Assembly (NCBI GenBank): GCA_949358305.1
Contig: OX442318.1
Location: forward strand, 1,784,501 to 1,848,500
DNA: 64,000 nucleotides
Reading direction: 5' to 3'
Origin: Strigamia acuminata
Lineage: Eukaryota > Arthropoda > Chilopoda > Geophilomorpha > Linotaeniidae
Shown here in pieces: positions 3,701 through 50,296 of this stretch (positions within the stretch are counted from its first letter, which is position 1; each line of letters starts with the position of its first letter). Below the pieces are notes generated by a model that saw only the letters and a program-made list of their open reading frames with translations, was not told the DNA's origin and did no database searches. A program made the position numbers and the translations under genes.

Positions 3701-3850
3701 GCTTTAAATTTAGAGAAGAAATAGAACACTTTTAATCGGATTTAAAAATTACAATTATTTACAGTTGCCATCACAACTTTCCATTGTAATAAATTGTTAT
3801 TGCAATACTTAAGTACCGTACTGCTTTATTAAAATTTTTTTTTGGGCTGA

Positions 3851-3883
<33 letters not shown>

Positions 3884-7251: not shown

Positions 7252-7569
7252 AGTTTGAAGTTGCGATTAATGGAACTGCGGCACTTGATCTGTTCGTATT
7301 GCCACTGCAATGCAGTATATTGATGTTGTGTCTGTTGAAAGAGTAATTTAAAATTAATGACAACTTAAATAATTTATCACAAAGACTTGATTATAACTAA
7401 TCACCAGTTGAATGTCAGAAAACCAACCATTATAATGTTTTCAAAGTCATGAACATAGTTATTACTAATAACTATGATCATGTTTCGTCTGGACAGTAAA
7501 AATCAATAATATTTTGCAAAGAAATATGCTTACATCTTCCATGTACTTGACCCTAATGCCAGGAGCCAT
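7252..7569 (-). other. Two candidate upstream exons of DEG/ENaC copy 3 (7534-7569 and 7252-7331)
   Basis: A Met followed by eleven codons ends at a GAT/GTAAGC donor (7534-7569). An 80-nt segment between TTTCAACAG and a CT/GTAAGT donor (7252-7331) continues that frame and ends in phase 2. They lie upstream on the same strand as the channel gene and could give its N-terminus or 5' UTR. But phase 2 does not fit the first channel exon (phase 0), so a linking exon would be needed. I found none. Low confidence. Confidence 0.3.
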
Positions 7570-10635: not shown

Positions 10636-10966
10636 TCAAATGAAATATTCAATGAGAGAAAATATCGAGAGACCGGTCAAAATACCAAAAATTGATCCGA
10701 TTTGGCAGAGTAATTTGACAATGGAAATTACTTTCTGTTCTTCTATTACTTCTCGGATGTTGCTGTCCATAGTGAATATTATAAAACGGCGGTCCTCACG
10801 TTTAATTATTGAAGGAATGAATATGGTTTCTTCACAACGTGGTGCGCAGGAACAGTCTTTCTGGGGATTTGTTTTGAATTGACTCTCCAAATATTGTCTG
10901 GTAGTTTTCTTAGCTGTTATGTGATCTTCACAATAAGGCAACGAACTGTTTTCCATAAATGGTAAT
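10636..10966 (-). CDS. Last exon of DEG/ENaC copy 2 (end of ectodomain 2, TM2, stop)
   Basis: The exon begins with phase 2 after ACTATTAG and ends in a stop after 110 codons. It carries LPYC, CSCAPRCEE, the pre-TM2 segment and GSIFGILTGLS, the family's second membrane segment with a GLS filter triplet. Unlike domain 1 there is practically no cytosolic C-tail after IEYFI. It corresponds to 24592-24922 in copy 1, with scattered amino-acid differences. Confidence 0.75.
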
Positions 10967-13900
10967 CTAATAGTATATCATGATTAGTGTGACTGCATTT
11001 CTATTATTTAAAAATGAATTAAACTTAGCAGTTTGTAAGTTAAAATCATAGTCTTTGATGCTTTGGTCGTACAAAGTAATGCTAGCAATCTCGCTCATTC
11101 TATCAGATAAACAGTTTAAGACAAAAATTTGTCACAAAATCCTATTTTTGGTCAGATTTTAATAACAGTTATGCGCGCAATCTAGCGCACTTGGGTCCAT
11201 GTTGGTGGAAAAATGTAAATTTTTGGCTTAATATGTCGATTTTTGGCTAAACTCGTCGATTTGTAGATAGTTACTTGTGCTAAAACTATGCAAAACGAAT
11301 GCTAAACATAGGACAAACGTGTGCTACAGCAGGGGTTCCCAAACTTTTTAGCATTGCGCCCCATTTTTAAGCAAGGCAATCTTCCGCGCCCCACTTCATC
11401 TACCGGTGCATTAAATTTTTCAAAAATGAACTACTAAAAAGAAAAAAGAAATTTTTATATAATATTGCATACAATTTTATACAATTTTACATATACTAGT
11501 AATTTTATGAGCATGAAGGCTTATTTATTAGCCATTTATCCATAATAGAATTGAGCACCCTAACTGAAATGGATTTGAATTTGGCAGTTGTGTATTGTCT
11601 AGATAGAATAGACTCTTCTAGACGACAAGACAAGTGCACTATTCTAGGAGGAGGGCATTATGTCTATAAATTAGTTTGATTGTTAAAATTTTTCAAAAAT
11701 AATTTTTGTGAGCGATGCGTCGCGCCCCATCAAAAATCAGCTCGCGCCTCACCGTTTGGGAAACGCTGCGCTACAGGATTAAGTAAATGGAAAAAAAAAC
11801 TTTCATTTTTTTCTTTTTATATTTAAAAATTAGTTATTGTGGGTCACAAGTGATTCTTAGTTTTTATTTTCGGTTTAAATTTTTGAATATTTTATTATGC
11901 AATAGTAAAAGTAGTAAATATTTCTAAAAACTTGTGCAAACGGTTACTAACAGTATTGTGAAGTATTATTTTTAATATTAATACTAATGTTTTTAATGCA
12001 CTTAATCCGAAAAGTAGCCAGCCCTGATCTCTGTGCTAAGAATTGTCGGATGTACTTTTTGGATTTGAAATCTGTTTATCACTATTTTCGGAGGAGAGAG
12101 AGGTCGGACAAACAGACAGACAGACAGATTCCTGATGATTAATGTATAGATGTTGAATTAATAGAAACTCACTTGCATTGGACTGACTGCTGGTCAAGCT
12201 TCATTCTAAAACATTTCTGTTCACATTCGGTAGCACGTTCATTCGTTTGACAGGGACTTTTGGGAGTGTTTATGCGAATAAGCTGAAAATAACTAATTTA
12301 GCAAATGGCACTGATATATTTTAGCGTGTGCAAAACTTCTACCGTTAGACGCGACAGATCGATTTTAATGCCGAAGGAGGTTGCACGTAAAAAAAAAATG
12401 TGTTTGGAGTGGAAAAGTTGATTTTTCGGCAGAAAGAAGACCTGCAATGAGTACAAAGAAATAATAATAAACATCTGAATGAAATGTTAATTCACAAGAC
12501 ATCTCACTGGGTCATATTCTTTGCATTTTCGAAGAAACCTTGTAGAGTAAATAATGAAAGTGTTATTCTTTGGAAAAAATGACTCTTCAACTGTAAAAAT
12601 TTATCAGTGAAAGAACTTATTTGATTTTTGGTAATGATTTATACCTTTCTTAATCACGGTGCACATTCCAAATGGTGTTGTCAAATATGATATGTTCACA
12701 ATTTTGGGATCTGCATTTTCATACTGGAAAAGAAATCATTTGTAAAAGTAATTTCCAAGCCCAGATTACCAAATTGTGTTTTGCATTCACAACTTTTTTA
12801 TGATCCTGATCAAGCACTTTTGTTTCCACTTAGGTTTTAAAGATGCTGATTTCTGGCACCTTGGAAATGAACAGTGTACCAAGCACTTGTTGCAGTTATA
12901 CCGGGTGGCCAACATAAAAGCGGCCTCATAATATTACATACACACATTTTCAGGCCGCTTTTATGTGGGCCACCCGGTAGCACTTAAGCAGTTAATGCTA
13001 AGAAATCGTTAAAGGTAAAATTTCGATTACAGCCAATCAAATGAAATGACTGCATTCTACAATGCAATAATTTCATGAAATTAATTTTCTGTGATTTGCA
13101 TAGTGCTCTCCACTCTCCTTCCAAACACAAGTTAAGAAACAGGGTTGAATGGGGATATTAAGGAATGGGATGATGTCATAGATCACGTAATAAGATTATT
13201 TATATTAGTTGTGTGCGATTTTAAAATTTCAATTGCTTACTTGGGTAGTCTTGTCAAATCCGCCTACCACCTCCTCTCTGTACTCTCCATTAACCTCTCT
13301 AGAATCTTCCCATAATTTCAATGAATTGTTTACGTATCGAGATTTAGGGTGGAGTAAGTCAAAAAGTTGAGAATTGGAGCAATCTGTACCAAGTTCTTCT
13401 GCTAACTTCTGCTTATAGAAATTTATATTACCATGATCGAAACAAGCGACAATAAGTGGAAACTGGATAATGTCATCTCTCACGAGACTAACAGTTTTGA
13501 CGAGTCGAAAATCAAAATATGTAGCAATTTGATTGTAAACATTGTAAAACGACATGAGGATCAGAATTAGGAAAAGTGAGTTTTTCAGTTTCTGCTGCAC
13601 GGACGATTTTTTTCGCGTGGTGTTCTGATGTTTTTCAAGAATTGTTTGAATTTTGTGTTTCAACTTGGAATTTGCCTTTGTTATTTTTCTGAACTTCATA
13701 AAGGGCATTCTGCAGCCGTGAACAAATATTTGGATGATTGTTAAGCAAGACATTCCAAAATAGAGTCCAACGTTTCCACCAAGGTCGCACAGTAAAGAGA
13801 TGATGTCATAGGAAACATGTTCTTGCAAGGTTCGGACATGATTATTGACAACGATAACTTCCAGAGCATACTCAGACTGATGAATATTCAATGTTTCATA

Positions 13901-16900
13901 GCGTATGCTTAGTTTTGTCACTTCGCATGAATCGGCACATTTGCAATGATTTCTAAGTTTTGTTGTATGGATAAATTTTGTCCACATTTGATATTGCTGT
14001 CTTAGGTAAGTGGCGTTGCATTCCGGTAGGTCTGTCGTTTCGTAAAATGGAGATCTAAAAAATAAGTTGAGTTACTTTGTGTTGGTTGTTGACAAATTGA
14101 AAATTGATACATACACGTGGGATTCATAGGGCAATACAAATAGCTGTATTTGAAAAGTGAGTTTAAAATTTAAGTTGTTGCAGTTGCAGTTGTTTTACTG
14201 CGTAAATGGTGCGCGCATGCCCACATACTGAAAGCAGACTATCAGCCATCATTTAGATAGTCCGACACAACCTTCAGTCGAGCAATTTCAACGTTCACAT
14301 GATTAAGGGACCACCAGAAAAGTATGGAGTAATTAATTGCCAAAAAAGGATGGCAAGTTACTTTATATCGGAGAACGAAGCAGACATTTTGTTTTGGGTT
14401 ACTAAATGTCTATGATTCTTTTCTACCAGCAACGTTTTCTTAACTGCTCTTTAGTTGGTTAAAATTACACTAGGGGGTTTCATAAATGATGCGCTGAAGG
14501 CGCTGAAGCGATTATGACGATTATTCTGCTGAAGCGATTATCATGTGACTTGCGTGGGCCAATCACATGAATAATCGCTTCAGCGTTTCCGCACTTATTT
14601 ATAATCACTGAAAAAGGAGCTTTTCATGCTTAAAACATAACATAACATAACCGGAAGTCATGTGACAGTAGTATAATCAATTGAACCTAGCGTGGGTCTT
14701 CAATAATAGAGCGATTGTGATTATTGGAATAATCACTTCAGCGCTTTCAGTGCATCATTTATGAAACCCCTTACTTACATGCCAGTTTAAATGTGCAGTT
14801 ATTTTCTACACAGGCAACTTTTTTGTTATTTTGTTCGTTAATTCATTGTCTCACACTGGCACTACAGTTACACAATTTTGCTATTCAGAGTGGAATTATT
14901 GGATTTTGCAGTTTACACTGAAAGGGTTTACGAATTCCAAAATAGAAGTTTTCTAACTAAATATTTTCATGAATAAATAAATAAATAAATAAAAATCCGG
15001 AAACTGGTCACAAAATTTACCACAGATTGTAAATCTTGCTCAGAGTAATTTTAGGGAATGATGTGTTATTAAAACACGTGTACCTGCACTTAATTTTTTT
15101 CAAGAGACAAGGATGCAAGCAGCCAATTAAATTGTTGTCGCATGGATTTCGTTTTGTGTTGACAAAGTTATACTGAAAGAAATTAATATTGTGAATGTTA
15201 CTCAAATTAAAATATCTGAAGGAGAATTTACACATGATAAGATTAGTTGTATTTAATTTCACGGCCTTTAGTGTTTATATCAGTGAACGTTAATTTTCGT
15301 TTTAGTTAAATTAGACAAGTTGCTTGAGAATGACTAGCGGTACCGGTAGTTGGACTTTGGACCTTGTGAGCTTGAAGTCAGGGCATGCAAGCACACCGAC
15401 CAAACTGATGTAGCTTCAAAACGAGCTTGCTCGAAATTCATCTCACTTCAATTTACGGGAGACAGATCATTGGAAACAAGCTGGGATTTGTAATGCAGGG
15501 AAGCATTACACATTAGACTTCTAAACCCTGTCATTTTGTCCCTAAATAAAACACCGAAATAATAGAAAATAAAGTAATTAAAAAAAAAAATTTTTTTTGC
15601 CAATATAAAGCAACAACAAACAAAATCCCACCAAAATTTGATATGATATGCTACAATCGGGAAATTAATCGCGCGGAAAACTAGAAAATATTTCTAGTTC
15701 GATTTTATTTTGCAGCCAATCACAGCTCATTTGCAGCAAACCCCGGATGCAACGTATCCGCGGCGTATCCGCAAGTGTGAACCGTCTTCCATGAAAATGA
15801 CGGAAATGACTTTGTCATAATGACGTCATTTCTGTAATTTTCATGGAATACACCGCTAAAAGTGCACTAAAACCGGTTTATTAATTCAACCGGAGGTCGG
15901 AGAAATCTGAAAATACCTTAGGATACTAATATAGGTATGCTCGACTTAATGCCGTTGTCCGTTTCACTCTAGCTGCTATAGTTTTTGCGGAATCGTTGAC
16001 GACGGACGGACGGACGGACAGACGGACATGACCGTTTCATGAGACTTTCTAAACATAGAGTTTAGAAGTCTAAAAGTCAACATAGAGTGAAGCACATAGT
16101 GTAAAAAAAGGAAGGATTTTCTTTTGGGTGTGTGGATTGGCAACCATTTTCAAATTTCTTTTTCATGTCAGTTTTACAATGTAAATTTGACGGCTAGTGC
16201 AGTTTGACATTATACAGGGTGAGCCAGAGAGACCTGATGATTTTGAAAATTTAATTACTTTGTAACTGATTAAAACTTCTATTGTTGAGCTATTGCTTCC
16301 TCCAACAATCTCTACTCTATACTCTTGTTCGATTCAAAAGGATGCTCTTCTCCCATTGGCCGAGCCGTATCACTGGTGTAGTGATCCAAAAATGTAGACC
16401 CAAACACCAGAAATGCATTACAATGTACAGACACTGTAATCGATTGCCTAGGCAACGGCCAAAAATTCAAACTTGTTTTTCCAGACATAATAACCGATAA
16501 ACAGTTTTTCAGTTATATGTGCATAGAAATGTTATTTCCGAAAAGGAGATAACATTTCTTTATAAAAATAATCAAAATTATATCAACTTAAATGGTAATA
16601 GCAATCACAAAACATAATAAAAATAAAAACTACTTCTCCTAGTGGTAGTAATACAGACTGGGGTTAGTAGTAATGCGGCTCGGCCAATGGGAGAAGGGCA
16701 CCCTTTTGAGTCGAACAAGAGTATAGTCAAAATGGTGACTGATAAATAAGCACATAAATTCTTCAGATTTCTCTGGCCCGTTGAGTTTTGTTATTTTATT
16801 GTGTGTTCAATTGATAAATTATTCTTACCTTTTGCACATTCGACATAGCAATGGTACTTAGATATACTAGTATACGGCTGCTATCTCGTCTATAAATTTT

Positions 16901-17112
16901 TATTCGAATCTTAACACCACCTTCATATGTAAGATGCGCTACTGGCGACGGATGAATTAATAGCTTTAAATTTAGAGAAGAAATAGAACACTTTTAATCG
17001 GATTTAAAAATTACAATTATTTACAGTTGCCATCACAACTTTCCATTGTAATAAATTGTTATTGCAATACTTAAGTACCGTACTGCTTTATTAAAATTTT
17101 TTTTTGGGCTGA

Positions 17113-17145
<33 letters not shown>

Positions 17146-18213
17146 AAGTCGGTTTGGGGCGGCGCGCGGTGCAATAAACGCCGCCCGGCGTTTGTATTCG
17201 AGCCCGGCGTCTGAATGAAACGGGCGTTTAAATGAGGCAGTACGGTAATGACCATTTTGTCTCCTGAACTAAAATAAATTTAAATTTCTATAAAAATATA
17301 AGGTTTATAAAAGCAGTTCTGTTAATCTGCAAAATAGTTTGATTTTAATATCAATATACGATGATATAAGCAAAAATATTTTATAATTTTGGCAAAAAAA
17401 CACAACACTTACTTTAAAATCCCAACAACCTTCAGGAAATTTTAGTTTGATGACCATCTTGTAATTAACATTTCCAAATTGAAGTAATGCTAAATAAAAA
17501 GGAATTTTACAATAATAAACGTGGATTTGCATTTATCTAGTTTTCTAACTTACGGCTTGAAATTTTACCAACTGGCCGTTCAAGATTAAGGAGGTTTTGA
17601 ATTGTCAAGTTGCTGCGTGATTTTCTCTGCAAAGATATTTTCTTATTGCTTGTTAAAAAATAATAAAGAAATGAAAATTTACCATTGAAAAATATGCATC
17701 AGATATGTAACTAGTTGTATGCAAATATTTTACCATCTCTTGAAGAGTGTATTTATATTTACCAAATTCCAGTGCGTAAGATCCTTGACACAGGTTTAAA
17801 ATGTATTTGTTCTGTTTGTTTTTGATATTTAGTTTTTGTTCGTTTTGGAAATGGAAATTTTGATATTCTTGCGTTGATTCTGGGTAAATATAAACATTTG
17901 GAAAATCACCATGACTGGTTTCAATGAAGTACGCATCAACTGTTGTTGGTTCGCTCATGTAATGCCAAATCCGTTCTCCCGTTTGAAAAACACACACTGT
18001 CAAATCTACAATGAGCAATGTAAATAATAGAATGGACATTTTCTTTTTCTTTTTTGAAATCTTCTTCATCGATTTGAAAAATGCTGGCATCTCCGATTGC
18101 TCTGCCATCACATTGGCAACGAGTTGTTGCATTTTTCTTTGTCGACGTTGTTGGATTCGTTCAAATGGTCGAATCAGTTTGTGTTCACCCATTTGGTATA
18201 TTTTTATCGCCAT
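10636..18213 (-). CDS. Two-domain (concatenated) DEG/ENaC sodium-channel-like gene, copy 2, complete
   Basis: Eleven exons with matching phases: 17683-18213, 17554-17626, 17413-17489, 16829-16963, 15084-15172, 13241-14054, 12645-12723, 12508-12590, 12343-12441, 12173-12282, 10636-10966. Total 2421 nt, about 806 residues, no internal stop. Domain 1: poly-Lys before TM1 (residues about 58-80), FPNVYIYP after TM1, spaced Cys pattern, CKCADSCE before TM2, then GLYFGMS (GxS filter). A basic linker leads to a second TM1, FPLIV after it, FGMC, a second Cys cluster, CSCAPRCEE, and a last TM2 with GILTGLS ending in IEYFI then stop. Each domain is about 400 residues, short against usual family members. 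DEG/ENaC proteins form trimeric sodium-permeable channels in the plasma membrane; the gating stimulus cannot be read from sequence. The exact start codon is uncertain. Confidence 0.8.
11330..11768. mobile_element. Non-autonomous hAT element, 439 bp
   Basis: Begins CAGGGGTTCCCAAACT and ends GTTTGGGAAACGCTG, typical hAT ends. It is flanked by the 8-bp direct repeat TGCTACAG / CGCTACAG (one mismatch). Intron of DEG/ENaC copy 2; the empty site CGCTACAG occurs once in copy 1 near 25520. No transposase. Confidence 0.8.
12901..12977. mobile_element. Tiny 77-bp hairpin MITE, TA target
   Basis: Arms CCGGGTGGCC..CATAAAAGCGGCCT and complement, with only a short loop, flanked by TA. Present in the copy 2 intron, absent at the matching place in copy 1. 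Confidence 0.6.
13241..14054 (-). CDS. Fusion exon joining DEG/ENaC domain 1 C-terminus to domain 2 N-terminus (copy 2)
   Basis: One 814-nt exon bounded by TTTTTAG before it and CCAA/GTAAGC after it. It is open for 271 codons in the frame set by the upstream exon (phase 2) and hands on phase 0. In order it encodes the end of ectodomain 1 (Leu-Pro-Glu-Cys, then CKCADSCE), TM2 with GGNVGLYFGMS, about 45 residues of cytosolic linker rich in Lys/Arg, then a new hydrophobic TM1, FPLIV, and the first part of ectodomain 2. No intron, stop or start-codon context lies between the two domains. So the join is not two neighbouring genes run together by an ORF caller. Confidence 0.82.
14473..14771. mobile_element. 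MITE, second copy of 1211-1509
   Basis: Identical position and sequence in the right duplicated block, so it inserted before that duplication. Confidence 0.7.
15513..16071. mobile_element. Second copy of the 2251-2809 element
   Basis: Same sequence in the right duplicated block. Confidence 0.45.
16320..16723. mobile_element. MITE, second copy of 3058-3461
   Basis: Same insertion in the right duplicated block. Confidence 0.7.
17078..17245. mobile_element. Second copy of the 168-bp MITE with 29-C run
   Basis: Homopolymer at 17113-17141, the same length of 29 as in the left copy. Confidence 0.6.
17683..18213 (-). CDS. First recognisable coding exon of DEG/ENaC copy 2 (N-tail, TM1, start of ectodomain 1)
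   Basis: 177 codons from the chosen Met. Contents: about 58 residues rich in Lys/Arg/Gln including a run of five Lys, a hydrophobic TM1, then FPNVYIYP and the first ectodomain part. It ends at Phe-Ser-Met/GTAAAT, phase 0. Two earlier in-frame Met codons lie within the same open stretch, up to 18339. A TTTACAG just before the Val-Tyr-Phe-Tyr codons could be a splice acceptor, so an upstream exon may supply the true start. Confidence 0.65.
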
Positions 18214-18362
18214 ATTTTCATAAAAATAGACCTGTAAATTGAAATTCATAATAAATTGTTTTTTGTTGTCATTGCACAGTACACATGCAAGAGGAACACA
18301 GGGCAGGAAGTTATTTGAATCGTTAATCATAAATAACATTGTAATTTCAGTATAGGTTTATA

Positions 18363-19717
18363 AGGGTGAGGCACAAAAAATTATGAACACATGGGATTTG
18401 TTTGTTTTGAGGTCATCTCATTATTTTATTGTTTTCTAACATTTTCAAAACCATGACCATAACCATGAAACCTTGTTTTTGAACATGGAAACTCTTAATT
18501 TTCGTCGTAATCAACTAAAATGAAAAAATACGTAGGTTCAAAAAATTATGAACAGTAGGTTTACAATGATTTATGACAATGTAGGCAATGATTTAGTACC
18601 ATTTAATACCCAACAAAGTTACCCTTAAGATGACTATGTACACCCTGTCTGAAATGGAATTAATTAGTGATTTTAATGAGGAAAAGTAGCTGCAGCTTTG
18701 TGGACTGGGCCATTGTCTTGCTGAAAGGTGGCTTTTCTGCCTTTGAGTCAAGTTTTGTAGGGACGTAAATGTTTCTGTAGTATGTCCTGATATGCATTTG
18801 CATACATCCTTCCAGAAATTAAGGCTAAAGATGTTTTTTCTTAAAATTGAAACCACTCCATATCATCACAATTCCTCCACCTTTGAAAAATACTCCTCTT
18901 CTTCATGTAAATTAAGCCAATAGTGTTTTTTGCCATCTGGGCTATTAAGGTTGAACTTTTTTATCACTGAAAATTATTTTTCTCTATTCTGCATCCCAGT
19001 TTGATATTTTTTGGCACACTTTAATCTGTCTTCTTTTTGCTTCTTTTTCAGGAATGGTTTTGCCTTCTTTTTCATCTACTTACAATTGTCATTCTTCTTC
19101 AAATCTCGAGTAACTGTAGTTTTTGATACATTTACACTCTATTCACTAGCAATTTTTCGATCAAACTGATTTTTATTTACAGCCAAATGGAAAATACGTC
19201 GCAGATCATATTGTTTCAGTTTACTTTTTCTCCCGCCACACTTCTTTCTCCCAGTCAAACTACTTTTGCCATTGATCTATTGTGTTACGGTAGACCTTGC
19301 TCTGTTCAACCGACTTGCAATTACACTAAGAGAGACTTTTTCAGCTACTACTAGTAGGGTATCAATTTGGCAGCATAGGATGAAATTCCCATTTCCACAT
19401 TAAAATCATTAATTAATTCCATGTCAGACAGGGTGTACATAGTTATCTTAAAGTAGGGTAACTTTATTGGATATTAAATGGTACTAAATCATTGCCTACA
19501 TTGTCATACATCATTGGAAACCTATGGTTCATAATTTTTTGAATCTAGGTATTTTTTTTATTTTAGTTGATTACGACGAAAATTAAAGGTTTCCATGTTC
19601 AAAAACAAGGTTTCATGGTTATGGTCATGGTTTTGAAAATGTTAGAAAACAATAAAATAATGAGATGACCTCAAAACAAACAAATCCCATGTGTTCATAA
19701 TTTTTTGTGCCTCACCT
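18363..19717 (-). mobile_element. Second copy of the long-TIR Tc1-type element (with broken transposase)
   Basis: Same as 5101-6455 including the decay, so it inserted and died before the block duplicated. Confidence 0.75.
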
Positions 19718-19882
19718 TAAAATATATTTCAGCAAATGCTTGTTCTATCTTTTGAACAACTTTGGTTATGAACATGATTCATCAAGTATGCGTTTAAGCA
19801 TAACTGCATTTTTGAATTATTCTCCTTGATTAATTTTTCACAAATTTTTTTTGTGTCAAAGTAGTAATAGTGGAAATTAATA

Positions 19883-20177
19883 GCCCAAAGTTTAAATCTA
19901 GTTCTGGTAGTTGGTGCGAACGCATCTAGCCCAAAATTATCTAGTTTAAAAATTGTTAAACTAGGTAATTCTAATCCATTTGTGTGAACTAGATAATTGC
20001 CAAAGAACTAGATAACTGCCAAGGTCACTTCCCACAATTCCATGCGTAACCTGGTCAGTTGGTTGTCTATTGGCTGCATGCTAGCCTAGATACGTGGCTT
20101 TTTGCTTTTTGGTGCGAACGCTTTAGCCTGAACTTTTTAAGCTAATATCAGGCCAGAACTAGATTTAAAGTTTGGGC
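19883..20177. mobile_element. MITE, second copy of 6621-6915
   Basis: Same insertion in the right duplicated block. Confidence 0.65.
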
Positions 20178-20513
20178 TAGCCCAAACTTTCTGGTGCGAA
20201 CAAGGTATAACCACTTGGCCACCCAAGGGTGACTTGCGTCACTGACACACACTGCTTACTGGACCCACCACAGCCTCCATGAGCAGCTGCATGGACCGAG
20301 GTTATTACGGCAAAACAGTAAAGCGTACTGACCCCTTCACCCATGGGGATAACCTCCCTGTTGGTTGCTGTGTGGCGTGCCCAAGAGCCACAGCCAGCTT
20401 GTAGGTTAAACAAGGGAACTCCGACTCCTAGACAACAGATTACAGGTCACCAATTTTCTAATTCTTGTGAACTCTTAAGATGTCAATTTTTTTGATTAGC
20501 TTTCTGTACTTAC

Positions 20514-20831
20514 AGTTTGAAGTTGCGATTAATGGAACTGCGGCACTTGATCTGTTCGTATTGCCACTGCAATGCAGTATATTGATGTTGTGTCTGTTGA
20601 AAGAGTAATTTAAAATTAATGACAACTTAAATAATTTATCACAAAGACTTGATTATAACTAATCACCAGTTGAATGTCAGAAAACCAACCATTATAATGT
20701 TTTCAAAGTCATGAACATAGTTATTACTAATAACTATGATCATGTTTCGTCTGGACAGTAAAAATCAATAATATTTTGCAAAGAAATATGCTTACATCTT
20801 CCATGTACTTGACCCTAATGCCAGGAGCCAT
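20514..20831 (-). other. Candidate upstream exons of DEG/ENaC copy 2 (20796-20831 and 20514-20593)
   Basis: Same sequences as 7252-7569. The 3' exon resembles 34666-34760 upstream of copy 1 only at its last few codons (Leu-Lys-Leu) and donor. Confidence 0.3.
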
Positions 20832-23800
20832 TGAGCAATATATAGTTTGCCAGAAAAATGTATATACGAAATCTGTTCACGCTTACTGAGAAGATACAGG
20901 TTTTGTGTAAACATTTTTTTGTGTAAACATTTTTTTGTGTGTATATTGCTCTGGCGTACTCTGTATTTGTTAAAATGAGAATGAAAATTTTTAATACACT
21001 ATAGATCTGTTTGTAGTACAATGAATTTTCAAAGGCAATCCCTGAATAGAAGAAACAGGCCTGTTCGCACAAATATTATTTTTAATTGTGGTACCGAACA
21101 ACCAGGAACAACATTGATTCCTATATGGAGTATTAGATATCATGCACGGGAGAAATCAATGGTGAAAGACTGCACTTTTCATATTCTGCAACCAGAGCGT
21201 GCTGTCAAACATTAAAAATGGTAATTTCAAGGTTGATTACTATTTTTTTTTATTGGACAATAAGTTGAGGGAGAATTGATTAAAATTGGAAAATTTACAC
21301 TGGAATAATTAATTAATTCAAATTGAAGAAGCAAATGGCAACATTCTGCGCTTCCAAGTTGCAGCGCCAATTAGTGGCGTAATACGAAACTAATATCAAG
21401 GTTTAAATGCGATCAATTTATTAAACCGATCTCATTAATTTAAATTATAAAAAAACAAAAATACTTATTAAAAATATGTGTTTATTATACGAGTTTTTAA
21501 ACTCAAAATCAAACATGAAAATTCTAATTGCGGGAATGCTGCGGGATTGATCGCTACCAGTCAGCTTGTGGGAAATGGCGGTTGTTTGTTATGAGTATTT
21601 CTGCCAAATTGAGCATCAAACACGGATGGATTTCACCTATGACTGTGGGTAATCGTCTCGAATAAAGCTACAAACCAATCTACAACCCGATTTCGTATAA
21701 AATCTTAACAAGTTCATTCATTTATTTATTTATTTATTTCTAGTCTGTTTTAATATTACGACACCGTGATGAAAGTCTCCGCCGAGCCACCTCGCGCAAT
21801 TTGATCCCATCCTTGCAAGGTAAACAACATTTAATTTTGACATATAAATTTGGCACTCGTCTAGGTCTCGAGATTTTTATGGACCTAATTCAGTTAGTCA
21901 AAAATAAAAAAAAATCAAATCAAATCAGAATTTTGTTAATTTGATGTCCATTTTGTGTCATGGAAAATCTATTTTGCTGATGTTCGAAATATTAGACAAT
22001 TTTAGCTATTTATTTTAAAAATCTTTGAAAATTTTAACTATTTTTTTAAAAAAAAGTTTGAAAATTTTAACTTTTTTTTAAAAAATTTTGTTTTAGATGT
22101 TTTCATGCTACGGATGTGATCAAACCAACTTTTATTATCACGTATAAGATGTGATACTTTGAGACAGTTGTTTTCCGTAGAAATGCTTTTGTTTTCCAAA
22201 TAACCAATACAGACGATTTGATGTCTGTCTTATCAGACATTGAACAGGACGGTTTAGTTGCGATCTTTGCCCGCATGAATCAGTTATTGATGCACTAACT
22301 TCTCGTGACGGATGATTTTTTATCTTTGTCAAGTGAGTTAATTATCTTAATTTTATCCAATAAAATAAATCGATTAACAAGCTTGCCCGTACCCTGTTGT
22401 GTCCATAATTAAGACAGATTTCAAATTCTCTGTTATTATTGATCGTCGAGGAGATTAGGTCCAGCCTGCCAAATTTCAACAATAAAACAAGGTAGTTGGT
22501 CTTTTTTTTTCTATCATTAGGTTTATTTCTACGATTTACACAATATTACAAATAGTGTATTTCAGGTGCACAACTAAAGGTATTCTCCTCTTCAAGTATT
22601 TGAGATGTGTTCTGTTGGAATCCGAGGCCATTCCTAGCAGAGACGATTCAGAAACAAAAAGAGAGAGAGAGTGTATTTTAAAGTTGTTAACAACCATTGA
22701 AACGGAGTTCAGTAGCTGCGACTACTGGTTAGCCAAAGTTAAATTTTAGATGAAAGATTTTACATTTAAAAACATAGGACATTAAACATATTTACATTTA
22801 AATACATAACTTATAAGATTAAATACATTTAGATTTAAAAACATTTAGATTTAAAATATTTAGATTTTAAAACATTTAGATTTTAAAATATTAGATACTG
22901 AAGCAGTTTAGTAACTGGGACCATGAGTTAACCTAAAACTAAAACTTTGATATGAAACAACAAGAATTCATTTTACAATTTAGTTCACACGAGACGAAAT
23001 ACATTTAAAGTTTTTGAAATTTTGTTCGAGGCTGAGGTTAAAATTACTTTGTGAATAATGTGCTTTTAGTAAGCGACATGCATTGATGGAGCCGCCGTAT
23101 GTGCTTTTGTAACTTAACTCTACTTTTGTGAATATTATTTGCAGTTTTTGCGATTAAATGATTTTCAAATTTCAAATTAAATTATTTTAGTTGGTCGAAA
23201 TTGGTGTTTTTTGCCACAATTAATAAAAATTATGCAATTATGTAGAGAATGCTTTCTGTCTTACTTTTTGCTTACATTTTCAATACTTATACAATACCAG
23301 GCCATTCCCAGCAGAGGCGCTTCAGGAACGAAGAGAGAAAGTGCATTTGAAACGTTGATATCAGATACTAAAACAGTTGTAGTTAAAGTATATTGTTTTA
23401 GATGAAAGATTTTACATTTTACATTTATATACAAACAAGTTTAAATGTAATTATTTGATTAAACAAGTGTTCGAATGCAACTGGTTTGTCAATGTGCTTT
23501 TAGAGGTTAAATGTTAAAGATAACTCAACTAGTGTATCCCGTGTATTTGAGAATGTTATCAATATAGTCTGCATTGATGTGTCTGCTTGCTATGTTTCCT
23601 GTTTCTTACATAGATTACACAAGTTGTTGCATTGATTGAGCTGCCATATCTGTTTTTGCATAAATCATAACGCAGTAAAGCTTTTTCGTGGTTTTGTTTT
23701 TAAAACTATTGAAGTTTCAACATTGGGTCAAAATGGGTCAATTACCATGTTTACATGATCACAGTTTTCCAGATAAGTGAATATTCGGATTTTATTTATC

Positions 23801-24591
23801 TAGATAACCGTTTGCGTTTACATGACGTTAGTTTTCTGGTAAACATGACGTCATACGAGAATTACCCATACTGCCCTTTGATTATCTGGAACAACAAAAT
23901 GGCTGTTTATCCATTTCAGCCAAACAAATGAAATGGTGGTTAGGAAAGAGGTTTTGATCGAAACTTTGCAATGGTGCCTAATATGCAAATTCTGATCCCA
24001 AAAATGGTGGTTTTACCTGATGTCACATGGATTTCGGTACTAAATGTCGTTGGTACGTAGGCCTAACGTATTTTTACTACAACGATCCGACCATGTCTCG
24101 ATCCAAGTTTTTGAATTTTCGCATCCACGGGTGTTTACATGCAGTTTTCAATGCGCAAAACGCTCAAAATCTAGCTCGTACAACTGGAATTTAGTTTTCC
24201 AGATAAGTCTGTCTTTTCTAGAAAACTGATTTGTTTACATGATCAGTTTTCCAGAAAAGTAAAATTCGCATTTTCACTTATCCAGATTACTGGGTACATG
24301 TAAACACGGTAAATGTTGTGTTAATTATTCGCAACTGCACTTAACTCTACTCTTGTGATTATTTTTTGCAGTTGTTGCGAATAAATGATTTTCAAATTTC
24401 AAATTAAGCTATAGATCTTAGTTGGTCTAAATTGGTGTTTTTTGCTGCAATTAACAAAAATCATGCAATGTTACTTTTTACTTACATTTTCAAAACTTTT
24501 ATAAAATACCAGAAAAATGTGTGTGGAAAGTGAAATTATAGAATTATATAAGCGATTGAAAGGTTACAGGGTGGTTTTGTTTACTTTTGAA
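20832..24591. other. Flank between DEG/ENaC copies 2 and 1; no gene supported
   Basis: Identical to 7570-10276 up to 23538, then a diverged version of 10277-10635 that has gained the insertion at 23745-24309. Same splice-like fragments as in the left flank, with nothing joinable. Confidence 0.35.
23745..24309. mobile_element. MITE, about 565 bp, TA target
   Basis: Ends CCATGTTTACATGATCA and ..ACATGTAAACACGG, with TA either side. Sub-terminal repeats of TTTTCCAGATAAGT. Only in the flank of copy 1, not in the paralogous place near 10477. Confidence 0.6.
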
Positions 24592-24922
24592 TCAAATGAA
24601 ATATTCAATGAGAGAAAATATTGAAAGACCGGTTAAAATACCAAAAATTGACCCGATTTGACAGAGTAATTTGACAATGGAAATTACTTTCTGTTCTTCT
24701 ATTACTTCTCGGATATTGCTGTCCATAGTGAATCTCAGAAGCCTGCCTTCTTCGTCTTTAATTATTGAAGGAATGAATATAGTTTCTTCACAACGTGCTG
24801 TGCAGGAACACTCCTTTTGGGGATTTGTTTTGAATTGACTCTCAAAATATTGTCTGGTAGTTTTCTTAGCTGTTGTGTGATCTTGGCAATAAGGCAACGA
24901 ACTGTTTTCCATAAATGGCAAT
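24592..24922 (-). CDS. Last exon of DEG/ENaC copy 1
   Basis: 331 nt, same length and phase as 10636-10966. Cys motifs LPYC and CSCTARCEE and filter GILTGLS are present, with the stop directly after IEYFI. A short 60-nt intron with donor GTAGAAG separates two upstream exons (25883-25992 and 26053-26151). Confidence 0.75.
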
Positions 24923-27900
24923 CTGATAGTATATCATGATTATGGTGAGTGCATTTCTATTATTGAAAAACTTAGCAGTTTATAATATTTAAATGCGTTG
25001 AAATCATAGTCTTTGATGCTTTGGTCGTATAAAGTAATTCCAGCAATCTCGCTCATTCTATCAAATAGACCAAAAATTTTCACAAAATCCTATTTTTGGT
25101 CAGATTTCAATTTGTGCGCTTGGGTCCAGGTGTGTGGGAAAAGGTCGATTTGTTGGCTTAAAATGTCAATTTTTGGCTTAAAATGTCAATTTTTGGCTTA
25201 AAATGTCAATTTTTGGCTTAAAATGTCAATTTTTGGCTTAAAATGTCAATTTTTGGCTTAAAATGTCAATTTTTGGCTTAAAATGTCAATTTTTGGCTTA
25301 AAATGTCAATTTTTGGCTTAAAATGTCAATTTTTGGCTTAAAATGTCAATTTTTGGCTTAAAATGTCAATTTTTGGCTTAAAATCGTCGATTTTTGGCTA
25401 CAATCGTCGATTTTTGGCTACAATTGTCGATTTTTGGCTACAATCGTCGATTTGTAGATAGTTACTTGTGCTAAAAGTATGCTAAACGAATGCTAAACAT
25501 AGGACAAAGACAAACGTGCGCTACAGGATTAAGTAAATGGAAAAAAAAACTTTCATTTTTTTCTTTTTATATTTAAAAATTAGTTATTGTGGGTCCAGTG
25601 ATTCTTAGTTGTTTTTTTTTGTTTAAATTTCTGAAAATTTTATTACGCAATAGTAATAATAGTAAATATTTCTACAAACTTGTGCAAACGGTTACTAACA
25701 GTATTGTGAAGTATTAATTTTAATATTAATACTAATGTAAATGCACTTAATCCGAAAAGTAGCCAGCCGGATGTACTTTTTGGATTTGAAATCTGTTCAC
25801 TACTTTCGGAGGAGAGAGAAGTCGGACAGACAGACAGATTCCTGATGATTAATATATAGATATTGAATTAATAGAAACTCACTTGCATCGGAATGACTGC
25901 TGGTCAAGCTTCATTTTAAAACATTTCTGTTCACATTCGGTTGCACGTTCATTTGTTTGACAGGGACTTTTGGGAGTGTTTATGCGAATAAGCTGAAAAT
26001 AACTAATTTAGCAAATGGCACTGATATATTTTATCGTGTGCAAAACTTCTACCGTTAGACGCGACAGATCGATTTTAAAGCCTTTCTTCTGTGCATATAA
26101 AAGTAAAATGTGTTTGGGGTGAAAAAGTTGATTTTGCGGCAAAAAGAAGACCTGCAATAAGTACAAAGAAATAATTATAAACATCTGAATGAAATGTGAA
26201 TTCACAAGACATCTCACTGGGTCATATTCTTTGCATTTTTGAGGAAGCCTTAGAGAGTATCTAATAAAACGGTTCTTCTTTGGAAAAAATGACTCTTCAA
26301 CTGTAAAAATTTATCATTGAAAGAATGTATTTGATTTTTGGTAATTATTTCTACCTTTCTTAATCACGGTGCACATTCCAAATGGTGTTGACAAGTATGA
26401 TATGTTTACAATTTTGGGATCTGCATTTTCATACTGGAAAAGAAATCATTTGTAAAAGTAATTTCCAAGCCCAGATTACCAAATTGTGTTTTGCATTCAC
26501 GTCTTTTTTATGATTTTGATCAAGCAATTTTGTTTGCCTTTAGGTTGATCACACATGCTGATTACAGGCACCTTGGAAATGAACAGTGTACCATGCACGA
26601 GTACAGTATGCAATTATTGCTAAGAAATCGTTCAGTGTAAAATTTCGATTGCAGCCAATCAGATGAAATGACTGACTGCATTCTGCCATGCAAAAATTTA
26701 GTGACATTAATTTTCAGTGATTCGCATAGTGCTCTCCACTCTCCTTCCAAACACATGGTCACAGATTAGTGGAATACACAGATGCGACACGTCCTCGGTT
26801 AGCGTCATTTTAGCTACGCTCATTTAAGCAAAAAAGTCCCATTTTAGCAAACATGTCATTTTAGCGACACAAAAACCAAGGTTTTAGCGACGCTACACGA
26901 TAAAAAAGTGGTTTTCATCAAAAAACCAGTAAGGTTAGGTTCGTTAACCCTTCTTAGGAATTAAACCTAGGTTTTTGTGTCGCTAAAATGACATGTTTGC
27001 TAAAATGGGACTTTTTCGCTAAAATGAGCCTCGCTAAAATGATGGAGATCCCACGTCCTTTGTTCTCCGCGTGATCGGCGAAAAACAGCGTGCCAAGCGG
27101 GCATTTATTTCCCTACAGGAAGACGTTCACTGCGCGTGTATATCGGCGGACGGAGGTAGCTTTGTTGTGGCAAACAGATCCAAACTCCGTTCAAATGTTA
27201 AAATGTTAAAAATGTTAATTTCCATAATTGAAAATGGTTTATACTTTTAGTTCTGCAATTATAACTATTGTTTCGATAAAAAAAAAAGTTTTCTATATTT
27301 GCAAAGAGTTTTTTTTTTTTAAAAATTCGTGATTCTTCATTGGCCGTGATAATTATGGTTTTCGGCGGCATCTAAACACGTACTGTCGGCCAATCAAGAA
27401 TCATAATTTTTTTTAAAAAAAACTCTTTGCAAATAAAAAAAACATTTTTTTTTTATCGAAACAATAGTTATAATTGCAGAACTAAAAGTATAAACCATTT
27501 TCAATTATGGAAATTAACATTTTTAACAGTTTTAACATTTGGACGGAGTTTGGATCTGTTGGCCGCAACAAAGCTACCTCCGTCCGCCGATATACACGCG
27601 CAGTGAACGTCTTCCTGTAGGGAAATAAATGCCCGCTTGGCCCGCTGTTTTTTGCCGATCACGCGGAGAACAAAGGATTTTGCAGAAGTGTCGCATCTGT
27701 GTATTCCTCTAATCTGTGCACATGGTAAGATACAGGGTTGAATGGGGATATTAAGGATTTTAAAATTTCAATTGCTTACTTTGGTCGGATTCTTTAAGAA
27801 TCCGCCTACCATATCCTCTATGTACTGTCCATTAAACTCTCTAGAGTCCTTCCATAATTTCAGTGAATCGTTTACGCATGGAGATTTAGGGTGGAGTAAG

Positions 27901-30900
27901 TCAAAGAGTTGATACTTAGAGCAATCTGTACCAAGTTTTTTTGCTAACTCCGCTTTATAGAAATTTATTTGACGAGTATCTAAACAATAGACAATAAGTG
28001 GAAACTGGATATTGTCATCTCTGACGAGACTAACAGTTTTGACAAGTCGAAAATCCAAATATGTAGCAATTTGATTGTAAACATTGTAAAACGACATGAT
28101 GATCAGTATTAGGAAAACTGAGTTTTTCAGTTTCTGATGCACGGACGATTTATTTCGCATTTTCAGCTTTTTTTCAAGAATTCTTTGAATTTTGTGTTTC
28201 CATGTGGAATGCACTTTTGTCATTTTTCTGAACTTCATGAAGGGCATTTTGCATCCGTGAGCAAATATTTGGACGAGTGTCAAGCAAGACATTCCGAAAT
28301 AGAGTCCAACGTTTCCACCAATGTCGCACAGTAAAGAGATGATGTCATAGGAAACATGTTCTTGCAAGGTTCGGACATGATTATTGAGAACGATAACTTC
28401 CAGAGAAAACTGAGACTGAGGAATTTCCAATGTTTCATAGCTTATGCTTAGTTTTGTCACTTCGCATAAATCGGCACATTTGCAATGGTTTCGAAGTTTT
28501 GTTGTACGGATAAAATTTGACCACATTTTGTATTGCTGTTTTAGGTAAGTCGCATTGCATTCCGGTAGGTCTGTCGTTTCGTAAAATGGAGATCTAAAAA
28601 ATAAGTTGAGTTACTTTGTGTTGGTTGTGGACAAATTGAAAATTGACACATACACGAGGGTTCATAGGACAGTAGCTGTATTTGAAAAGAAAGTTTAAAA
28701 TTTAAGTTGGTAAGGTAGGTTCACACTTGTGTTCACACTAGGGGCGACGCAACGCAAGGAAAAAGTAATCAAACGCAACGCAGAGTCTGTTCACACTGTA
28801 CGGCACGTGTAAACAGAGCTGCAACAATTGACGCTGCGTCTGGCCAATCGGATGGTTTCAATTAAACCTGGAATTGGATCTAGTTCTAGAACTAGTTCCA
28901 GAATTTGAAAATGGCGGCCTGTTTGCATGTAGCAAAGTCTCACCAACCAAAAGTGAATCGACGAGAGTTGAAGTCGATCGTGATTGGTTGGACGCAAGAC
29001 CTTTCCTTGCGTTGCGTCGCTTACTTCAACTCGGAGTTGAAGCAGGAATTGGCGTCAACGTCAAGAATTTTTGGACGCAAGCAGCTTGCGTTGCGTCAGT
29101 TTTCTTGCATTGCGTCTATTGTGAACACAAGTGTGAACCTACCTTTACAGTTGCAGTTGTTTTACTGCGTAAATGGTGTGCGCATTTCCACATACCGAAA
29201 GCAGACTATCAGCCATCATTTTTAAGGTAGACCGAAACAACCTTCAGTCGAGCATCATGACCGGTACAGCAGTTTAAAACAGCTGTAGCCATAAACCCAA
29301 TGTGTTTACAATGCTGTTATTTTATGACTGGCGGATTTATGATGCTTTATAATCGGCAAATGTGGCATTTTTCTTAAAAAATAATCCAGATCGGCCGAAA
29401 CTGGTCAAAATGACCTGTCAAAATAACGTTAACATTACGTGCACTAAACGTGCACCAACCGTACACCAAACGTGCACCAACCGTACACCAAACGTGCACC
29501 AAACGTGCACCAAACGTGCACAAAACCGGTTCTATACGTGCACAAAACATGCACCATTTTGACCGGTTATTTTGACCTGTTTCGGCCTTTCTAGGTAGAT
29601 CGAAATTCCGGTCGTTCTAGTGTTAAAAATACTGACCACCAGCAGTCTGAAAGACTTTTCGAATGCAGCTATTGAAACCTGTGTTGTCAACTTCAATTTC
29701 AATGTTCACATAGATTAAGGGACCACCCGAAAAATGCTACCTCGACCACTTATTAATTGCCAAAAGAGGAGAGCTTGCCATCTTATTTTTGGGTTCTAAA
29801 CGTCTATGATTCTTTTCTACCAGGAACGTTTTCTGAACTGCTCTTTAGTTGGTGCCAGTTGCCAGTTGAAATGTGTAGTTATTTTCTACACAGGCAACTT
29901 TTTTGTTATTTTCTTCATTCATTCATTGTGTCATACTACAATTTCACACTTTTGCTATTTGGGAACGGAATTATTTACTCTTGCAGTTCACGCTGAACGG
30001 GTTCCCAAATTTCAAAATATAAGTTTTCTAACTAAATATTTTCATTTTTCACTTAAGGGATAATAAAAATCCGGGAACTGGTCATAAAATGTACCACAAA
30101 TTGTAAATCTTGCTCAGAGTAATTTTATGGAATGACGTGTACAGTACCTGCATTTAATTCTTTTCAGAAGACAAGGATGCAAGCAGCCAATGTAATTGTC
30201 GTCGCATGGATTTCGTTTTGTGTTGATGAAGTTATACTGAAACAAATTTAGATTGTGAATGTTACTCAAATTAAAATATCTGAAGGAGAATCTACACATG
30301 ATAAGATTAGTTGTATTTAATTTTACGGCCATTAGTGTTTATATAACATAGTGTGGATTAACAACCATTTTCAAATTTCTTTTTCATGTCAGTTTTACAA
30401 TGTAAATTTGACGGCTAGTGCAGTTTGACATTATACAGGTTGAGCCAGAGAGACCTGATGATTTTGAAAATGTAATTACTCTGTAACTGATTAAAACTTT
30501 TATTGTTGAGCTGTTGCTTCCTCCAAAAATCACTAATCTAGTCAAAATGGTGACTGATAAATAATCACATAAATTCGTCAGATTTCTCTGGCCCGTTGAG
30601 TTTTGTTATTATACCGGTAGTTGGACATTGGACATAGTGAGCTGAAGTCAGGGCATGCAGGCAGACCGACCAAACTGATGTGGCTTCAAAACAAGTTTTC
30701 TCTAAAATTCATCTCACTTCAATTTATGGGAGACAGATGATTGGAAAAAGTCAACAAGAGTGAAGCACATAGTGTAAAAAAGGAAGGATTTTCTTTTGGG
30801 TATGTGGATTGGCAACCATTTTCAATTTTTGGTTTCATGTCATTTGTACGATGCAAATTTGACGGCTAGTGCAGTTTCACATTATACAGGGTGAGCCAGA

Positions 30901-32331
30901 GAGATCTGATAATTTTGAAAATGTAATTACTCTGTAACTGATTAAAATTTTTAATGTTGAGGTATTGCTTCCCCCAACAATCACTTCACTACTCTAGTCA
31001 AAATGGTAACTGAAAAATAAGCATATAAAATTCTTCAGATTTCTCTGGCCCATTGGGTTTTGTTATTTCATTGAAGGTATATTATTGTGTATTCAATTGA
31101 TAGATTATTCTTACCTTTTGCACATTCGCCATAGCAATGGTATTTAGATATTGGTTTGAACGGCTGTCACGTGGCCTATAAATTTTTATTTGAGCATCAA
31201 CATCACCTTCATACGTAAGATGCGCTACTGGCGACGGATGTATTAATAGCTTTAAATTTAGAGAAGAAATAGAACCCTTTTAATCGGATTTAAAAATTAC
31301 AATTATTTACAGTTGCCATCACAACTTTCCCATGTAAGAAATTGTTATTACAATACTAAACTAATGAATAATGACCATTTTCTCTCGTGAAGTAAAATAA
31401 ATTTAAATTTGTATAAAACTATAAAGTTTATAAAAGCAATTCTGTTAATCTGCAAAATAGTTTGATGTTATTATCAATATATGAAGTGATAAGCAAAAAT
31501 ATTTTTATAATTTTGTCAAAAAAAAACAACACTTACTTTAGTACGAAAACAATATTCAGGAAATTTTAGTTTGATGACCATCTTATAATTAACATTTCCA
31601 AATTGAAGTTGCAATGCTAAACAAAAAGGAATTTTACAATAATAAACATGGATGTGCATTTTTCTAGTTTTCTAACTTACGGCTTGAAACTTGACCAACT
31701 GGCCGTTCAAGATTAAGGAGGTTTTGAATTGTCAAGTTGCTGCGTGATTTTCTCTGCAAAGATATTTTCTTATTGCTTGTTAAAAAATAATAAAGAAATG
31801 AAAATTTACCATTGAAAAATATGCATCAGTTATGTAACTAGTTGTATGCAAATATTTTACCATCTCTTGAAGAGTGTACCAGTATTTATAGTCACGAACT
31901 TCCAGTAAGAGATCAGATCCAGCACACTCCTTTAAAATGTTTTTCTTAAGTTTGTTTTCGTTTTGGAAATGGAAATTTTGATATTCTTGTGTTGTTGGTG
32001 GGTAAATATAAACATTTGGAAAATCACCATGACTGGTTTCAATGAAGTACGCATCAACTGTTGTTGGTTCACTCATGTAATGCCAAATCCGTTCTCCCGT
32101 TTGAAAAACACACACTGTCAAATCCACAATGAGCAATGTAAATAATAGAATGGACATTTTCTTTTTCTTTTTTGAAATCTTCTTCATCGATTTGAAAAAT
32201 GCTGGCATCTCCGATTGCTCTGCCATCACATTGGCAACGAGTTGTTGCATTTTTCTTTGTCGACGTTGTTGGATTCGTTCAAATGGTCGAATCAGTTTGT
32301 GTTCACCCATTTGGTATATTTTTATCGCCAT
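24592..32331 (-). CDS. Two-domain (concatenated) DEG/ENaC sodium-channel-like gene, copy 1, complete, diverged
   Basis: Exons: 31810-32331, 31681-31753, 31537-31616, 31115-31249, 30148-30236, 27780-28593, 26355-26433, 26218-26300, 26053-26151, 25883-25992, 24592-24922. These sum to 2415 nt, about 804 residues. The intron plan equals copy 2, and all but two exons have identical length. The first is 9 nt shorter and the third 3 nt longer, both in-frame changes, which argues for selection on the reading frame. The protein differs at many positions in the ectodomain (for example the region after VYIYP and the exon at 31115-31249), while both TM2/GxS regions are well kept. Upstream the frame stays open from a Met at 32541, a longer possible N-terminus that copies 2 and 3 cannot have because a Tc1 element interrupts it. 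Introns hold several private insertions. Confidence 0.8.
25151..25454. repeat. 20-bp minisatellite in DEG/ENaC copy 1 intron
   Basis: About 11-12 head-to-tail units of TTTTGGCTTAAAATGTCAAT, then four variant units with CAATCGTCGATTTTTGGCTA. The matching place in copy 2 (11217-11262) has only two to three units. Confidence 0.9.
26760..27718. mobile_element. Fold-back DNA transposon, 959 bp, with 8-bp target duplication
   Basis: Near-perfect palindrome: arms of several hundred bp starting CACAGATTAG(T/A)GGAATACAC and meeting near 27360. Flanked by the direct repeat CACATGGT (26752-26759, 27719-27726). The left arm is interrupted by a second small element (26796-27051). In copy 2 the site is unoccupied near 13125. 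The 8-bp duplication suggests hAT- or P-like mobilisation. No ORF. Confidence 0.75.
26796..27051. mobile_element. Nested 256-bp palindromic element
   Basis: Sits inside the left arm of the 26760-27718 element, flanked by the 8-bp repeat CACGTCCT. Internally palindromic with many copies of ATTTTAGCGA / TCGCTAAAAT. Confidence 0.6.
27780..28593 (-). CDS. Fusion exon of DEG/ENaC copy 1
   Basis: Again exactly 814 nt with the same flanking splice signals as 13241-14054. Substitutions are spread through it, yet the frame is uninterrupted and the TM2 core (GGNVGLYFGMS), the linker (HGCKMPFMKFRK) and the second TM1 are kept. The linker is slightly altered in composition but stays strongly basic. The conserved length between diverged paralogues is the best internal evidence that the two-domain arrangement is functional. 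Confidence 0.8.
28713..29145. mobile_element. MITE, 433 bp, TA target
   Basis: Ends AGGTAGGTTCACACTTGTG and complement, with TA both sides. The interior repeats ACGCAACGCA in both orientations. Intron of copy 1 only; copy 2 has the joined flanks near 14175. Open frames inside it are not genes. Confidence 0.65.
29386..29595. repeat. Palindromic element with CGTGCACCAAA tandem repeats
   Basis: Inverted arms (GGCCGAAACTGGTCAAAATG at left) enclose 9-11 bp tandem units of the type CGTGCACCAAA, about 29440-29560. Copy 1 intron only. Probably a small MITE whose loop has become a minisatellite. Confidence 0.5.
30352..31070. repeat. Local duplication of an intron segment in DEG/ENaC copy 1
   Basis: A stretch of about 250 bp (30352-30605) recurs in diverged form at 30808-31070, with CAGTTT(G/C)ACATTATACAGG in both. 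Copies 2 and 3 have it once (about 2870-3055 plus 3464-3530). Confidence 0.65.
31810..32331 (-). CDS. First recognisable coding exon of DEG/ENaC copy 1
   Basis: 174 codons from the equivalent Met. The N-tail and TM1 match copy 2 almost exactly, while the last third, after VYIYP, differs by substitutions and a small in-frame deletion. The open frame continues upstream to a Met at 32541, which would add about 70 residues. Confidence 0.65.
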
Positions 32332-50295: not shown

Positions 50296-50296
50296 A

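Follow-up and report, generated by a model that had tools for sequence, protein, structure and literature searches.

Channels of the DEG/ENaC family are threefold, and on the canonical plan each chain contributes one ASC domain with two transmembrane (TM) segments. Can such a channel also be built from a chain that carries two subunits? The question is raised by a stretch of 64,000 nucleotides (nt) from the centipede Strigamia acuminata (assembly GCA_949358305.1, contig OX442318.1, positions 1,784,501 to 1,848,500; hereafter the window), whose minus strand holds two complete DEG/ENaC genes, here called A and B, and the start of a third, A0. An earlier reading of the letters alone (the original prediction) had proposed that in these genes one exon joins TM2 of a first domain to TM1 of a second. 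From gene models, the wider genome, and a second species, we strongly infer that the product of each of these two genes is a natural tandem dimer of DEG/ENaC subunits, very probably made as a single polypeptide with four TM segments.

Two channel domains in one reading frame

Both genes were rebuilt from AG acceptors and GT donors with matching phases, chosen by eye and then checked by script; the exon 1 start codon and the exon 4 acceptor are the least certain elements of the models. Gene B (32331-24592, minus strand) and gene A (18213-10636, minus strand) each comprise 11 exons in a single open frame, of 804 and 806 codons, respectively, in agreement with the consistent exon phases and the roughly 805 codons proposed at the outset. 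Equal exon lengths in the two genes, also proposed, hold for 9 of the 11 exons and fail for exon 1 (531 nt in A versus 522 in B) and exon 3 (77 versus 80 nt), where the differences amount to whole codons only (9 and 3 nt). Each domain is interrupted by five introns, and the phase series of the first domain (D1), 0, 1, 0, 0, 2, recurs identically in the second (D2), so that exon 6 resembles the final exon of one gene copy fused to the opening exon of a neighboring copy. The two domains are 27% identical over 146 residues (E value 1e-12), from the cysteine-rich exon 5 or 10 through TM2.

Exon 6 is 814 nt long in both genes and carries, in order, the end of the first extracellular part, TM2 of D1 (TM2a, "GGNVGLYFGMS"), a linker, TM1 of D2 (TM1b), and the first part of the second extracellular domain. 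It is one open frame throughout in both A and B, as the original prediction had it. None of 2000 composition shuffles left all 271 of its codons open (0/2000), while a linker of such composition is open by chance in 3.7% of shuffles.

The joined B protein matches the Pfam family PF00858 (ASC) in two stretches (63.1 bits, E 3.3e-17). Searched alone, D1 scores 45.2 bits, over residues 288-410 only, and D2 scores 27.3 bits, over residues 30-374, against a cut-off of 23.6. Instead of the canonical single ASC domain with two TM segments, two domains thus follow each other in-frame. The four highest hydropathy peaks of A and B lie at the expected TM places in both domains, a cysteine-rich extracellular domain lies between TM1 and TM2 of each (cysteines read by eye), and the GxS triplet is present in TM2 of 40/41 D1 rows and 17/18 D2 rows. 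In A and B a stop codon follows directly after TM2 of D2 (TM2b), and D2 ends 0 to 1 residue after TM2b in 18/18 loci whose exon 11 passed our filter (47 loci searched; matches below 40% identity or short of the query end were left out). This stop indicates that the unit is two domains and not an open series, and the same 18 last exons among the 47 loci gave no sign of a third fused domain.

The nearest solved relatives of the two domains are from the centipede Scolopendra subspinipes mutilans. D1 is best matched in the PDB by PDPNaC1 (9jf7), likewise a centipede DEG/ENaC, over residues 263-410, its C-terminal half (E 1.3e-12), and D2 by BRTNaC1, or Broad-range thermal receptor 1 (8ymr, 8ymw, 8ymx), across the entire domain (query residues 38-374, E 3.9e-16). 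Unlike the chain described here, PDPNaC1 (421 amino acids, two TM segments, homotrimer) and BRTNaC1 (431 amino acids, three chains per entry) have one domain per chain. ASIC1 structures, from the same family and also with one domain per chain, match D1 in the TM2 region (E about 0.0005) and likewise match the A3 profile (E 2.8e-10). PDPNaC1 comes from antennal sensory neurons and responds to pH changes; its authors regard another glycine, not that of GxS, as decisive there, and the parts of their paper covered here make no mention of fused DEG/ENaC proteins (PMC12714832). By kinship with these two channels, the product of A and B would be a sensory cation channel.

A basic linker conserved in length and sequence

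The linker was compared over 41 rows, namely 38 paralogues, A and B among them, plus three proteins of a second species, S. maritima; 2 duplicates were left out of the exon-6 alignment, as were 4 loci that either lie in the window or duplicate such a locus exactly. The linker had been proposed as basic and some 45 residues long. Its basic character stands, with a net charge (K+R-D-E) of +5 to +15 and a median of +10, and its length is to be corrected to 39-46 residues, with 43 in 29/41 rows and 44 in A. The middle of the linker is conserved, with columns K159, I160, and L164 kept in 88%, 98%, and 88% of rows. The ratio of nonsynonymous to synonymous substitution rates (dN/dS) is 0.40 for the linker itself (169 pairs), against 0.47 for the stretch of exon 6 that precedes it and 0.52 for the stretch that follows (170 pairs each). 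These values are ratios of means over pairs at dS 0.1-0.8, which share rows and so are not independent; 4 rows were left out, 2 with stops and 2 partial or odd. By these measures the linker is under purifying selection and conserved in both length and sequence.

The phase-2 acceptor AG of exon 6 lies at the same position in 42/42 loci, three of which are the window's own exons. By the topology of the family the linker would be cytosolic, and it is probably long enough to join neighboring subunits. Amphipathicity of a linker helix was not significant by shuffling (shares 0.09-0.24, three sequences).

Hundreds of fused places in the genome

The original prediction spoke of two diverged paralogues. 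A and B are indeed diverged, but the fusion is not confined to them, since A0 has it too and, in all, at least 436 places across the genome (237,517,015 bases, 157 contigs) carry the fused exon. As queries we used the exon-6 protein of gene A and three very different fused exons taken from Pfam matches (L056, L057, and L058, on contigs C8 and C1), which are 24-27% identical to the B protein and have many relatives each. The gene A query matched at least 142 places, 4 of them with a stop, and the searches with L056, L057, and L058 listed at least 143, 136, and 144 matches. With the count confined to matches spanning TM2 as well as TM1, and places less than 600 bases apart merged, we obtained at least 436 distinct places with TM2, linker, and TM1 in one match, 394 without a stop and 42 with one. 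All 142 gene A matches cover both TM segments and entered this union as full, whereas 7/143 and 47/136 matches from the L056 and L057 searches did not reach both and were left out. The total is a lower bound on places, with only the best candidates scored per search, and it includes near-identical copies, small contigs that possibly repeat placed loci, and broken copies, so that it is not a count of working genes. Clusters of three or more hold 339 of the 436. The search for further fused proteins yielded both these genomic places and the overlapping S. maritima predicted proteins described below.

Exon order was followed by separate searches with exon 11 and exon 1 (150 matches listed for each, of which one exon 11 row, a second fragment beside a listed one, was left out), on the same strand and within 15 kilobases (kb). 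Among the matches listed, 270/291 neighbor steps follow the cycle exon 1, exon 6, exon 11, exon 1; 87 copies of exon 6 have exon 1 next upstream and exon 11 next downstream; and exon 6 never follows directly after exon 6. The 21 off-cycle steps are expected in part because the three lists hold best matches only. Ten steps lead from exon 1 directly to exon 11, and the four that we fetched (L051-L054) all hold exon-6-like sequence (4/4): one copy is intact, two seem to shift frame inside exon 6, and one is without the TM2a part. In twelve 10-kb stretches round copies of exon 6 at 40-46% identity (L039-L050), exon 1 was found upstream in 8, exon 11 downstream in 8, and both in 5; the remaining exons may lie past the stretch or be too diverged. 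A family of this size points to a repertoire for chemical or other environmental cues in this soil centipede.

The genome also holds apparent one-domain DEG/ENaC last exons (L001-L008 and L060, on contigs C1, C3, C4, C5, C6, and C9), some of them close together on C4 and C3. In L001-L008 (8/8) the frame closes no more than about 20 residues past TM2, with a splice before the stop possible, and the one-domain subunits seem, by eye and from putative splice sites, to start their last exon at the same place in the domain as the fused genes do. They may be candidate partner subunits for the fused chain.

The same fusion in a second species

In a first protein database search, three S. maritima proteins matched exon 6 at 48-55% identity. 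A profile search gave 8 matches at E <= 1, 7 from S. maritima plus a distant DEG/ENaC protein with a single domain (P0008, E 7e-5); the full-length B model, searched against a large protein database, returned nothing at E <= 1e-3. The fusion did not turn up in any other taxon in the protein database, whose myriapod coverage is not established. The S. maritima proteins are short predicted models, none of which covers exons 1 to 11, and P0007 (exons 1-5), P0004 (3-8), P0002 (6-10), and P0005 (6-11) jointly span all exons. P0006 covers exons 5-11, and P0001 and P0003 cover exon 6.

A tree was built from 111 columns of the TM2 region, few enough that its forks are weak; 12 of the 38 D1 rows did not enter it, nor did those of L057, P0002, and P0003 or the rows of L005 and L060, which have one domain. 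Within the subfamily of the window, D1 rows form one clade and D2 rows another (100/99 each), with S. maritima row(s) in each, which implies that in this subfamily the fusion predates both the species split and the gene split. L056 and L058 have their D1 rows among long branches, apart from the subfamily D1 clade. The fused gene probably arose by the joining of the last exon of one tandem copy to the first exon of its neighbor, with loss of the stop, the spacer, and the start; this would have happened before S. acuminata and S. maritima separated, and the fused gene would later have spread to hundreds of places. Being kept over so many places and in two species, the fused exon lends strong support to the predicted protein with four TM segments and two domains.

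The main text of the S. maritima genome paper, as far as it was covered here, has no mention of ENaC, sodium channel, amiloride, or degenerin, and its phylome section lists sodium transport among functions, beside large GR and IR expansions (PMC4244043). The fused channels might contribute to that sodium transport entry.

How a two-subunit chain could meet a threefold channel

The chain, of about 800 residues, would run TM1a, extracellular domain, TM2a, cytosolic basic linker, TM1b, extracellular domain, TM2b, and such a fusion would guarantee that every cell makes its two diverged halves together and in equal amounts. Two subunits per chain do not evenly fill a trimer, and the locus thereby poses a clean question, namely, how a concatenated subunit copes with odd symmetry. 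Natural fusions of repeated channel units are familiar from two-pore channels, Nav/Cav, and K2P, but these are fourfold or pseudo-fourfold, so that two domains divide evenly, as they do not in the threefold DEG/ENaC family. Concatemers in which the C terminus of one ASIC or P2X subunit is tied to the N terminus of the next have been engineered in the laboratory, whereas the centipede chain would be natural, with a linker that is conserved and under selection.

Our favored guess, which we hold at a little under even chances, is that D1 and D2 are neighbors within a single threefold channel whose third place goes to another chain. This could be a one-domain subunit, several of which the genome seems to have, so that a partner may be available, or it could be a domain of a second concatemer. 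Somewhat less probable, among the ways of arranging the same four-TM chain, is an assembly of three identical chains into a six-domain complex, a D1 trimer linked to a D2 trimer at its side, with two pores and no partner. It would be the smallest closed threefold assembly from one gene product, GxS is kept in each TM2, and the D1 and D2 rows fall into clades of their own; on the other hand, a four-domain ring of two chains would close too. Any other arrangement, such a ring of two concatemers included, seems unlikely to us. One paper argues, in the part covered here, for tetrameric ASIC1a at the cell surface (PMC4529235).

With any of these assemblies, a threefold channel family has probably evolved a natural two-subunit concatemer that is now among the larger receptor-like families of the centipede genome, and an assembly with a third subunit serving as shared co-receptor, the two-pore assembly, and the ring would each be a new channel architecture. 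The concatemer has been kept and copied hundreds of times, and its conserved linker can be read as a design rule. The original prediction knew of no natural example; we likewise found no two-domain DEG/ENaC protein described in the open-licence PubMed Central literature searched, which tests the point weakly.

Weighing other explanations

Several results count against a single chain with four TM segments. The fusion is read here from genomic sequence and predicted protein models. TM1a is identified by hydropathy, place, and resemblance to other TM1 segments; the N-terminal half of D1 falls below the Pfam cut-off (exon 1 alone, 13.9 bits, E 0.028), and P0007 has no ASC match by Pfam. Of the four hydropathy peaks, those of TM2a and TM1b are the weaker (1.34-1.52). 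An HG motif shortly before TM1 is common in ENaC and ASIC, but the fused genes do not have it in that position: it occurs near TM1b in 0/41 linkers, counted from just behind the end of TM2a, and does not precede TM1a in the gene models of A and B, where an HG lies about 45 residues before TM1b, at the end of TM2a and outside the counted linker. Two of the seven S. maritima models have gaps at the junction, P0005 missing the beginning of TM1b together with most of the linker, and P0006 missing TM2a and, again, most of the linker; this could be prediction error or alternative splicing, and it speaks against uniform use of exon 6. Structure models of exon 6 (eight rows; predicted local distance difference test [pLDDT] 41) and of P0005 (eleven rows; pLDDT 39) are too poor to use, and the helices of the former (TM2a at 94-115 and a long helix at 129-181 through the linker into TM1b) are a hint only. 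Finally, dN/dS between A and B is 0.69 over the whole protein and exceeds 1 in exons 1, 4, 8, and 9, with 0.12-0.25 in exons 5, 7, and 11, all on small numbers per exon; the pattern could, tentatively, suit receptors with fast-changing outer domains.

Among explanations that would do without a lasting four-TM chain, the one that survives best, and is still improbable, is a single precursor cut in the basic linker to give two subunits at 1:1. The charge of the linker would suit such a cut, but the established topology of DEG/ENaC channels places it in the cytosol, beyond the reach of secretory-path proteases, and the conserved K, I, and L columns of its middle (88-98%) suggest a structural role.

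We give marginally less credence to two overlapping genes, in which an internal promoter or early polyadenylation would yield separate transcripts for D1 and D2, or translation would initiate within the linker. A methionine is present in 38/41 linkers, which makes internal initiation possible and must be set against the single chain; AATAAA or ATTAAA occurs in 6/38 linker DNAs, that of B included, and a donor-like motif in 4/38. Yet 3/41 linkers have no methionine, the poly(A)-like hexamer is not conserved, the linker is near-fixed in length and under purifying selection, and S. maritima P0004 spans exons 3 to 8 across it. There is a stop between TM2a and TM1b in 0/41 rows (picked by protein match, which favors open ones) versus an immediate stop after TM2b in 18/18 loci.

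An assembly artefact or a decaying, functionless pseudogene array is least credible of all: 42/436 places hold a stop, some copies are near-identical, some small contigs repeat placed loci, and 3/4 inspected copies outside the exon 6 list are damaged in exon 6, but 394/436 frames are open, splice sites are conserved, exon 6 has a dN/dS of 0.40-0.52 between paralogues, and the same fusion is present in a second species.

Gene copies and other features of the window

Positions 1-10478 and 13263-23744 are tandem copies with 99.84% identity and a period of 13.26 kb, from which the third copy, A0, is deduced (Table 1). The pair is either a very recent duplication or a haplotype duplicate left in the assembly. 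Another exon 6 with the same protein sequence lies outside the window, at C6:1766088.

Table 1. Exons of the fused DEG/ENaC genes in the window (e, exon)
Feature	Position	Strand	Length (nt)	Remarks
Gene B exon 1	31810..32331	-	522	N terminus and TM1 of domain 1; ends phase 0; S. maritima P0007 covers e1-e5
Gene B exon 2	31681..31753	-	73	Phase 0 to 1; within P0007 match
Gene B exon 3	31537..31616	-	80	Phase 1 to 0
Gene B exon 4	31115..31249	-	135	Phase 0 to 0
Gene B exon 5	30148..30236	-	89	Phase 0 to 2
Gene B exon 6	27780..28593	-	814	TM2 of domain 1, basic linker, TM1 of domain 2
Gene B exon 7	26355..26433	-	79	Phase 0 to 1
Gene B exon 8	26218..26300	-	83	Phase 1 to 0
Gene B exon 9	26053..26151	-	99	Phase 0 to 0
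Gene B exon 10	25883..25992	-	110	Phase 0 to 2
Gene B exon 11	24592..24922	-	331	TM2 of domain 2, stop codon directly behind
Gene A exon 1	17683..18213	-	531	N terminus and TM1 of domain 1
Gene A exon 2	17554..17626	-	73	
Gene A exon 3	17413..17489	-	77	
Gene A exon 4	16829..16963	-	135	
Gene A exon 5	15084..15172	-	89	
Gene A exon 6	13241..14054	-	814	TM2a, linker, TM1b
Gene A exon 7	12645..12723	-	79	
Gene A exon 8	12508..12590	-	83	
Gene A exon 9	12343..12441	-	99	
Gene A exon 10	12173..12282	-	110	
Gene A exon 11	10636..10966	-	331	TM2b and stop
Gene A0	about 1..4951	-		Additional near-identical copy holding e1 to e6, truncated where the window begins; genome match C6:1784479-1785291

Remnants of a further copy are found at 49858-50301, with exon 1 to exon 3 sequence containing stops, and at 37335-37471, which is 76-77% like the 3' end of exon 11 and its flank. 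An element of about 190-265 base pairs is repeated at 30352-31067, in the intron between exons 4 and 5 of gene B, and one copy of it is also present in A and A0. The stretch 33245-33550 is repetitive and open in several frames on both strands, and it is perhaps a minisatellite.

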